Source: Acidimicrobiia bacterium
GTDB lineage: Bacteria > Acidobacteriota > Vicinamibacteria > Vicinamibacterales > UBA2999
Length of the DNA: 48,495 bases
Assembly: GCA_016871375.1 (NCBI GenBank)
Contig: VFYY01000005.1
Span: forward strand, 1-48,495
Direction of reading: 5' to 3'
The translations under genes were made by a program, and so were the position numbers. Numbering within the stretch: position 1 is the stretch's first letter; each line of letters starts with the position of its first letter. Below, in pieces: positions 24,593 through 26,904 of this stretch. The notes under the pieces were generated by a model that saw only the letters and a program-made list of their open reading frames with translations, did not search any database and was not told the origin of the DNA.

Positions 24593-24598
24593 TATAAT
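24593..24598. promoter_or_regulatory. Shared -10 region for thyX and the divergent aminotransferase
   Basis: TATAAT on the plus strand (24593-24598) faces thyX. The same A/T patch, TTTATAATTG, read backwards gives AATTATAAAC with TATAAA (24595-24590) facing the aminotransferase. Starts at 24578 (minus) and 24610 (plus) are each about 12 bp beyond the hexamer. The two promoters overlap, so only one polymerase could bind at a time. Confidence 0.5.
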
Positions 24599-24609
24599 TG
24601 CGTCCGTCC

Positions 24610-26145
24610 GTGCTGTCCACTGGTGCTCCGCACGTCACGCTGCGCAATGCGCCGAACGTTCCGTTTGATGGTGCCATTGCCGCGGCGCGCACCTGTTATT
24701 CCCCGCGAGTCATAGCCGCGAACGAAGTCACGCAGAAGCAGCGCGACACGATTGGTTCCCTGACGTTCGACGCCGGGCACCACACCGTGTATCAGCACGC
24801 GCACTTCGAGTTCGGCCTGGAGAACGTGTCCCGGCAGTTCGTCTGGTCGTTCCTGCACTCGTACCCCTTCTACAACTCCGAGCAGTCGAGCCAGCGCTAC
24901 GTCAAGCTCAAGGAGCCGCGCGCCTTCGTGCCGCCCATCTGCGGCGACGCGCGCGACATCTACGAACGCGCGATCGTCAGGGCATGGGACCGCTACGCCG
25001 AGCTCTCGGCGCTGCTGAAGGACGATGCCCTGGCGATCCTCAGGGAGCTGCGCTACGTCAGGCCCGGAACCAATCCGCAGCGGCTCGAGCAGATCGACAG
25101 GGACGCGGAAAAGCGCGCGATCGAAACCGCGCGTTATGTCGTGCCCATTGCGGCGTTCACGTCGATGGTCCACACGGTGTCTGGAATCGTCCTCCACAGG
25201 CTGTACCGGATGGTCAATTCCAGCGACACGCCGCACGAGGCGCGTCTCGTCATCGGCGAGATGGTGCGGCTGGTCGGCGAATCCGATCCGCTGTTCTTCG
25301 AGAAAGTGGGCGAGGGGCCCATCGGGTCCGAGCAGCTCCCCGAAACCAGCTTTCCGCGGCCGCGCGGCGACGGCGACTGCTTCGCCGCCGCCTTCGACGC
25401 GCGCCTGAACGGCCGCTGGTCGCGGCTGCGCGACATGCCCGGCGAGGCAGAGCAGGTCATCGCGGAATCGGTGCGTTCCGTGTTCGGGCTCGGCGCCGAC
25501 GACATGTCGGACGACGAGGCGATCGAGCGCGCGATGAACCCGGCGTTGAACCGCTACCGGCTCGACGTCCTCAACGTGTCGTACCACTCGCCGCTGATGC
25601 GGTCGCTGCACCACGCCAACTACGTCTTCGAGAAGCGTCTCAGCCACACCGCCGACTCGCAGGACCAGCGCCACCGCATGGTGCCCGCGTCGCGGCCGCT
25701 GATGACGTTCGCCGACACCGCGGCGCCCGACTACATCACGCCGCGGCTGATTGCGGCCAACCCCCGCGCCAGGGCGGTCTACGACTGCGCGATGCGGGAG
25801 GCGTGGGACGCGAAGAACCAGCTGCTCGCGCACGGCGTGCCGCTCGAGTTCGCGCTGTACGTGCTGCCGAACGCGAAGACGCTCAGGTTCGTCGAGTCCG
25901 GGTCGCTGCTGGCGCTGCTCCACAAGTGGACGCTGCGCACCTGCTTCAACGCGCAGGAGGAGATCTACCTGGCGTCGATGGACGAGATCGACCAGGTTCG
26001 CCGGGTGCATCCGCGCCTGGCGAAGCACATCGGCCCGCCGTGCGTCATCCGCAACGGGCTGATTGCACCGCGCTGCACCGAAGGCACGCACTTTTGCGGC
26101 GTGCCCGTGTGGCGCGACTTCCCGAACGCCGTACGAAAACTGTAA
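24610..26145 (+). CDS. thyX: Long FAD-dependent thymidylate synthase with two ThyX-like halves
   Basis: ThyX makes dTMP from dUMP with methylene-tetrahydrofolate and FAD. Usual ThyX is about 220-250 residues; this protein is 511. The N-terminal half has AAARTCYSPR, HHTVYQHAHFEFGLENVSRQFVWSFLHSY and NSEQSSQRYVKL (about 91-102), matching the C-terminal part of the RHRxxSxxExSxRY signature. The C-terminal half has LMRSLHHANYVFEKRLSHT, DQRHRMVPASRPLM (about 351-365) and PNAKTLRFVESG, LLALLHKWTLRTCFNAQEEI. The signature thus seems divided between halves. GTG at 24610 is chosen; TTG at 24598 is possible. The TAA abuts a 30-bp inverted repeat. Confidence 0.87.
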   Translation: MLSTGAPHVTLRNAPNVPFDGAIAAARTCYSPRVIAANEVTQKQRDTIGSLTFDAGHHTVYQHAHFEFGLENVSRQFVWSFLHSYPFYNSEQSSQRYVKLKEPRAFVPPICGDARDIYERAIVRAWDRYAELSALLKDDALAILRELRYVRPGTNPQRLEQIDRDAEKRAIETARYVVPIAAFTSMVHTVSGIVLHRLYRMVNSSDTPHEARLVIGEMVRLVGESDPLFFEKVGEGPIGSEQLPETSFPRPRGDGDCFAAAFDARLNGRWSRLRDMPGEAEQVIAESVRSVFGLGADDMSDDEAIERAMNPALNRYRLDVLNVSYHSPLMRSLHHANYVFEKRLSHTADSQDQRHRMVPASRPLMTFADTAAPDYITPRLIAANPRARAVYDCAMREAWDAKNQLLAHGVPLEFALYVLPNAKTLRFVESGSLLALLHKWTLRTCFNAQEEIYLASMDEIDQVRRVHPRLAKHIGPPCVIRNGLIAPRCTEGTHFCGVPVWRDFPNAVRKL

Positions 26146-26146
26146 G

Positions 26147-26221
26147 GGGGTCGGGAGTCATTTTTGGAGGACAGTTGATTCATGATTCGCGAACTGTCCT
26201 CCAAAAATGACTCCCGACCCC
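26147..26221. repeat. Perfect inverted repeat, 30-bp arms, 15-nt loop
   Basis: Arm 1 (26147-26176) begins GGGGTCGGGAGTCATTTTTG and ends GAGGACAGTT; arm 2 (26192-26221) is its exact reverse complement. The loop is GATTCATGATTCGCG. It starts directly after the thyX stop and contains the ribosome site (GGAGG, 26166-26170) and start codon (ATG, 26182) of the next gene. It looks like a small mobile inverted-repeat element (MITE or REPIN type); a dispersed copy is not visible here. Confidence 0.9.
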
Positions 26222-26904
26222 ATTTAACCGCCTGGCTTGTCCACCTCTATACGGCAAGCGGCGCGCTCTGGGCCTTCCTCGCGCTCACGCGCATCTACTA
26301 CGACCGCTATCCCGACGCGTTCTTCTGGCTGTTCGTCACGGTCTTCGTCGACGCGACCGACGGCCTGCTCGCGCGCGCGGCCGCGGTCAAGGAACGCCTG
26401 CCGTGGTTCAACGGCTCCAGGCTCGACGACATCGTTGACTACCTGACCTACGTCTTCGTGCCCGCGTTCTTCGTCTGGCATGCGGTGCTCGTCCCCGACC
26501 GCTGGGCGATCCCGATTGCCGCCGGCATCCTGCTGTCCAGCGCCTACGGGTTCAGCCGCGAGGATGCGAAGACCGACGATCACTTCTTTACCGGGTTTCC
26601 GTCGTACTGGAACGTCGTCGCCTTCTACCTGTACGTCGCGCGGTGGCCGCAGGCGGTGAATGCCGGGATTCTGCTGCTGTTGACGGCGCTCGTGTTCGTG
26701 CCCATCCGCTACGTCTATCCGTCGCGCACGCCGGTGCTGCAGGCGCCGACGCTCGTGCTCGGCGTGCTGTGGGGTGTGCTGATGATCGCGATGCTCTGGC
26801 AGGCGCCGGAGGTGTCGCGCCTCATCTTCTGGCTCTCCCTCCTCTTCCCTGCGTATTACGTGGCGCTGTCGCTCGCCCTGCAGGCGCGGCGGCGTGGAAT
26901 ATGA
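26182..26904 (+). CDS. CDP-alcohol phosphatidyltransferase, phosphatidylcholine-synthase-like
   Basis: The 240-residue membrane protein (seven or eight hydrophobic segments) has the CDP-alcohol motif DGLLAR..G-x3-D-x3-D (D58 region; GSRLDDIVD about 78-86) with a longer-than-usual gap of 12 residues before the Gly. The start AWLVHLYTASGALWAFLAL and VKERLPWFNGSRLDDIVDYLTYVFVPAFF fit bacterial Pcs, which makes phosphatidylcholine from CDP-diacylglycerol and choline. A phosphatidylserine or other headgroup role is possible. Residues 1-13 (MIRELSSKNDSRP) come from the inverted repeat, and no other start is available before the conserved region. The stop overlaps the peptidase ATG (ATGA). Confidence 0.82.
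   Translation: MIRELSSKNDSRPHLTAWLVHLYTASGALWAFLALTRIYYDRYPDAFFWLFVTVFVDATDGLLARAAAVKERLPWFNGSRLDDIVDYLTYVFVPAFFVWHAVLVPDRWAIPIAAGILLSSAYGFSREDAKTDDHFFTGFPSYWNVVAFYLYVARWPQAVNAGILLLLTALVFVPIRYVYPSRTPVLQAPTLVLGVLWGVLMIAMLWQAPEVSRLIFWLSLLFPAYYVALSLALQARRRGI

Follow-up and report, generated by a model that had tools for sequence, protein, structure and literature searches.

We find that the hairpin holding the start codon of a phosphatidylcholine synthase-like (pcs) gene belongs to a recurring family: the evidence supports a small mobile hairpin of which the same genome (bin G000; all genomes considered here are metagenome bins) has about two dozen copies. It is very probably a short, non-autonomous element of a RAYT-type (HUH/Y1) transposase family that habitually supplies start codons, and often upstream stop codons. 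Judged by sequence, these hairpins appear to land repeatedly between genes of this bacterial family and to capture the start of the next gene and often the stop of the prior one, housekeeping genes included. The initial annotation of the window (the whole stretch of 48,495 nucleotides analysed) had proposed a mobile inverted repeat that became the leader of the gene. Many copies, a cognate transposase gene with the same arms and empty orthologous sites all bear this out, with the element now forming both leader and N-terminus of pcs. What that reading missed is the recurrence: at one gene junction after another, the family captures start (and stop) codons.

The hairpin lies between thyX and pcs (Table 1). 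Its arms are exact reverse complements over 30 bp, and such a perfect inverted repeat is far beyond chance. The initial description of the arms, the 15-nt loop, the GGAGG motif and the loop ATG is right in all particulars. The element itself extends a few bases further, with an A/T-rich tip on either side, and its left tip overlaps the thyX stop TAA (26143-26145), which may be native in origin rather than derived from the tip. Behind the right tip, T-A-W marks the place where orthologs start, a few codons before the W. As first read, the pcs frame runs from the loop ATG through the 3' arm and stays open to its stop. Ahead of the conserved AWLVHLYT region it contains no further ATG, GTG or TTG, and one CTG (26194). 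The 3' arm also carries the family's arm ATG (26207-26209) and an overlapping TGA (26208-26210), neither in the pcs frame. The minimum free energy of positions 26130-26240 (111 nt) is -60.8 kcal/mol (z -10.0), with no shuffle equally low, in agreement with the earlier proposal that a read-through transcript from thyX would bury the ribosome site. That site, GGAGG, is indeed in the 5' arm, 11 nt ahead of the ATG. It is nevertheless ruled out as a dedicated pcs ribosome site, since the motif belongs to the arm itself (consensus GAGGACA).

Table 1. Features at the thyX-pcs junction, with positions numbered in the window.
Feature	Position	Strand	Description
thyX, flavin-dependent thymidylate synthase	ORF 24598..26145	+	Pfam Thy1, 1e-48; C-terminus HFCGVPVWRDFPNAVRKL before the stop, as in orthologs
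Left tip	26142..26146		GTAAG; family forms TAAT/TAAAT/TAAG; basis: flanks of about 50 copies and empty sites
5' arm	26147..26176	+	30 bp, complements the 3' arm perfectly; GGAGG (26166-26170) inside
Loop	26177..26191	+	15 nt, GATTCATGATTCGCG; pcs ATG (26182-26184) inside
3' arm	26192..26221	+	pcs frame reads E-LSSKNDSRP
Right tip	26222..26226		ATTTA, then directly ACC GCC TGG (T-A-W)
pcs-like gene	26182..26904	+	240 aa, phosphatidylcholine synthase family; start within the element

Searching the genome of origin with 91 bp returned 54 matches (both strands counted) on many contigs. These resolve into about 22 full copies plus several lone arms; the consensus arm is GGGGTCGGGAGTCATTTTTCGAGGACACTC. 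The search for further arm copies suggested in the initial annotation thus yields about two dozen recurrences. Across five genomes (G000, G053, G013, G052, and G016) there are about 50 full copies, whose lengths cluster at 74-77 and 84-87 bp with loops of 14-17 and 24-27 nt. The two clusters of loop length lie about 10 nt apart despite unrelated loop sequences, as if one helical turn mattered. The tips outside the arms are A/T-rich (ATTTA on the right). Most copies are located at gene junctions, with gene starts and stops lying inside the element. The arm pattern is patchily distributed, being present in 9 of 162 genomes of the order.

The same arms flank a RAYT-type Y1 transposase gene on contig C78 of G000, where they lie about 740 bp apart (L029, 204-233 and 942-971). 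The gene exceeds the cut-off for PF01797 (49 bits) and matches the NCBIfam model for REP-associated tyrosine transposases (NF047646) over its full length at 63 bits, below the cut-off of 80. ORFs with the MPNHWH signature are likewise flanked by arms in G053 and G016, which represent two further genera. In both of these RAYT genes (L168 and L198) the stop codon is the TGA in the arm, which shares bases with the arm ATG; the ATGA motif may have originated in this way. G000 has three more Y1 transposase genes (contigs C139, C205, and C59; L036-L038), which do not have these arms nearby.

Empty sites are found in a relative. Flanks of 15 G053 elements were used as queries against G011, which belongs to the same genus and yields no element match. 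The flanks meet directly, with neither arms nor loop, at two clean empty sites (L172/L199 and L171/L201), where a few bases are lost and target-site duplication is not clear. At those sites the loop is therefore not host DNA, and a loop of captured host DNA is ruled out there. The upstream gene's stop is the TAA at the element tip in 18 of 38 cases. Four of the five corresponding sites in G011 have a different native stop (TGA, TGA, TGA, and TAG), and at these four sites the upstream stop has been replaced by the tip TAA. One 55-bp element lies in frame inside an apparent uvrC (L176/L252, contig C138 of G053); the corresponding position in G011 holds a different insertion, about 90 nt long (L206).

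Start codons show a marked preference of frame. We called genes around the 43 elements that have longer flanks, using GC3 and open frames over sequence lying 75-375 nt off the element; the calls are mostly statistical, with about ten gene ends checked by family profiles. Among 38 gene 5' ends at an element, the frame is open back to the element in 36. These 36 abutting genes are divided 24/9/3 among the three frames, where equal use would give 12 each (chi-square 19.5, p ~6e-5). The most common register (24 of 36) is that of the arm ATG in AAAATGACTCCCGACCCC, which gives proteins beginning MTPDPI or MTSDPI. Nine genes use the register of pcs (VSSKNDSRPH). The remaining three have the register closed by TGA, and all three have a native ATG within 13 nt. 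Eight more elements contribute 4/1/1, for a total of 28/10/4. Many of the downstream genes retain a candidate native start no more than 30 nt away and may not use the one in the element.

Nine element-started proteins were run against NCBIfam. For eight of them (MeaB, FolD, MobA, Tmk, 3-oxoacid CoA-transferase B, Tag, a NifS/IscS-like protein, and Mpg) the family profile starts at residue 6-13, just after the element-coded residues, and PheS is matched only in its later part. In relatives, tmk mostly starts in a stop/start overlap (TGATG, GTGA, or TAATG). This overlap is gone in G000, where the gene reads MTPDPIGLLVAFEG and the frame of the gene upstream is closed by a TAG in the 5' arm. The pheS start ATG overlaps the end of rplT in relatives (L20 was recognised by reading the sequence only). 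In G000 the old ATG persists and opens a 25-codon frame across the whole hairpin, and the TGA closing this frame overlaps the arm ATG that opens the PheS frame. The frame upstream of purL in G000 (L224) likewise extends to the arm TGA. In G053, the native N-terminus of a glcD-like gene is replaced by MTSDPF and the native GTG of mpg is lost. Comparison with relatives thus shows the native start replaced in tmk, the glcD-like gene, and mpg, and moved to the arm ATG in pheS; donation of starts and stops is evident at the level of sequence.

Some genes carry the element in more than one genus. The meaB start lies in the element arm in two genera, within a transposase-bearing element in G053 (L168) and a short form in G000 (L220); purL, mobA, and mpg also have the element in more than one genus. 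In G000 (L226) and G013 (L259), mobA and its neighbour are divergent and the entire gap between them is one element, so their promoters must lie in the element or in the neighbouring genes.

The thyX-pcs junction itself is mostly free of the element. In orthologs a short gap separates thyX from pcs, whose [AGT]TG start precedes the W of WLVHLYT by a few codons. Our tree set includes 21 element-free orthologs, in which [AGT]TG follows soon after thyX where readable. A hairpin conserved among orthologs over large distance, which the initial annotation had named as evidence against mobility, did not appear when relatives were searched. The element-carrying pcs genes are those of the window, G013, and G053, from three genera. 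All three have it at the identical position, with the final thyX codon on one side and the two codons that precede the conserved W on the other, and read the arm in one common frame. In each, the loop ATG is the sole canonical pcs start (MIRELSSKNDSRPHLTAW, MAAELSSTNDSRPHVAAW, and MTRLSSKNDLRPHFAPW, respectively). The retention of this lone ATG and arm frame in two other genera supports 26182 as the start, as initially assigned. GATTCATG is common to the window and G013 loops, and a paired change distinguishes the arms of these two copies; in G013 the 5' arm includes a run of N. The G053 copy has a different loop and its own genome's arm type (GGAGGTC). In a ThyX+Pcs tree, a single clade of the three carriers is rejected (AU p 0.0012) and a clade of the window and G013 is disfavoured (p 0.019). 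This excludes a single ancestral insertion with the carriers as one clade, although the window and G013 share GATTCATG. Repeated insertion at the same junction and early insertion followed by losses are both possible histories.

The junction is occupied by other repeat types in several relatives (L072, L043, L050, L069, and L135). One repeat, GCGGGGCGTAAAGCCCCGCC, encloses the pcs ATG (MAGRKAPPYT), and arrays of CTTCCACTT and of CAGAACCC also fill the junction.

The window gene is a putative Pcs-like CDP-alcohol phosphatidyltransferase: it matches NCBIfam phosphatidylcholine synthase models at 5.9e-61, with a best score of 206 bits that does not reach the curated cut-off of 440. It keeps 45 of 46 otherwise invariant residues, and the G013 and G053 proteins keep all 46. 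This retention indicates that the gene is under constraint, and Pcs sequences give no sign of decay. Contig C67 of G000 holds a second M20 peptidase-pcs-thyX set (L069; L159:59-3957), which has no element and is closest to the G053 copy. Other family genomes having Pcs have one copy each, so the second set may be bin contamination; it may also be a true duplicate.

Could the hairpin instead be a conserved cis-regulatory structure of pcs, its sealed start opened by a signal and selected whatever its mobile origin? Three genera do have perfect or near-perfect arms at the same junction, and the window and G013 combine paired changes on both sides with a common loop motif. Most orthologs, close ones included, have no hairpin, however, and arms at unrelated genes are paired equally well, so that pairing needs no pcs-specific selection. 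The G053 copy, moreover, follows its own genome's arm type. An RNA thermometer or riboswitch-like leader fits poorly with a structure that is not conserved across orthologs and is absent from the junction in most. We regard such a regulatory role as improbable. Still less probable is that the window Pcs is a pseudogene in the making, with the insertion having killed the start and the loop ATG being accidental. A start sealed at a predicted -60 kcal/mol and a second thyX-pcs copy in the bin speak for this, yet the frame is intact for 240 codons with nearly all invariant residues kept, all three carriers share the loop ATG and an identical arm frame, and the second copy is suspect in a family where Pcs is otherwise single-copy. 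The least probable of these readings is that the loop is host DNA, with arms inserted or copied around the native pcs start. Loop sequences differ among copies, and the codons after the ATG (I, A-A, T) resemble the native N-termini MIG, MAA, and MT; against this stand the absence of the loop sequence at the two clean empty sites and the clustering of loop lengths.

A more serious contender, though one we think unlikely, concerns the frame agreement, which could be a by-product of target choice if elements enter at stop/start overlaps in one preferred register, with no selection for start donation. Several native junctions are indeed overlaps (TGATG, GTGA, and the ATG in the last rplT codons). 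The elements occur in each of the three frames, however, and lie at several different distances from the native start, and among the 36 abutting genes the TGA-closed frame is confined to cases with a native ATG no more than 13 nt further on. Target choice of this kind alters the reason for the pattern, not its outcome.

We return to the mobile, start-supplying hairpin as the preferred reading. Judging from its family, the element would be moved by RAYT acting on single-stranded DNA in folded form, as happens in REP/RAYT systems. An element would land in the gap between two genes, where its tip TAA could end the upstream frame and its right arm open the downstream frame in two of three phases, reading ATG ACT CCC GAC CCC or GTG TCC TCG AAA AAT GAC. 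Insertion between genes would be tolerated because both frames are provided for in this way, and the native start could be lost afterwards. In the window the insertion would have fallen in the second phase, with an arm that has CTG in place of GTG, so the loop ATG would be used. With that start sealed on a thyX read-through transcript, Pcs output is probably low, or Pcs is made from transcripts starting inside the element. At pheS, the leader frame would melt the hairpin and end in ATGA, an attractive setting for initiation. Since thyX stops at the hairpin base, pcs has no such frame through the hairpin, which makes low expression or internal transcription likelier. More tentatively, and short of an even chance, the elements could be evolved stop/start cassettes, palindromes whose TAA tip and far-arm ATGA (a stop and a start that overlap) on either strand would allow entry into almost any operon junction and capture of both termination and initiation of the host genes, with initiation by coupling.

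The closest known kind is that of REPINs and RAYTs (Bertels and Rainey 2011, PMC3116915; Nunvar 2010, PMC2817692). As in those systems, a RAYT-kind Y1/HUH transposase gene lies between two inverted arms, and multiple short copies in intergenic gaps have two inverted arms that fold into one long hairpin around a less conserved spacer of preferred length. Our elements differ in their long (28-30 bp), nearly perfect arms and in copies that number in the tens rather than hundreds. The arm, GGGGTCGGGAGTCATTTTTCGAGGACA, is itself no palindrome and has no GTAG-like tag at its head, and one arm folded together with its flanks is no more stable than shuffled sequence (z +2.6). Furthermore, whereas REPINs are strictly extragenic, genes start and stop inside the elements described here. 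We thus file the family as a RAYT-associated variant rather than a classical REP.

Other palindromic elements offer partial parallels. Rickettsia palindromic elements, summarised in PMC10969869, are palindromic mobile DNA read in frame in host proteins, a feature shared here; those elements sit inside genes, whereas most of ours lie at junctions and supply starts, with the in-frame uvrC copy as the one exception. Prokaryotic MITEs such as ERIC (PMC10969869) are also short and non-autonomous, have inverted repeats, and are sometimes fused to genes. Our elements differ from MITEs in having no clear target-site duplication, a Y1/HUH-type transposase, and recurrent start donation. Liang 2015, as cited in PMC12306157, reported that E. 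coli ribosomes stall where a REP lies no more than 15 nt from a stop codon. The hairpin base is 1 nt past the thyX stop, so by analogy thyX output may be lowered too. The E. coli effect is on the upstream gene, whereas here the downstream start lies inside the hairpin as well, and any effect is putative. A literature search of incomplete coverage found no direct precedent for start-codon donation by REP or MITE elements, which leaves novelty unproven.

If true, our reading describes a recurrent route for selfish DNA into host genes, among them pheS, tmk, purL, nifS-like, and folD, and explains how insertions are tolerated in densely packed operons. For annotation, N-termini of the MTPDPI/MTSDPI type in these genomes would be element-derived. 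The system also offers a clean test of ribosome initiation inside or next to a perfect 30-bp hairpin.
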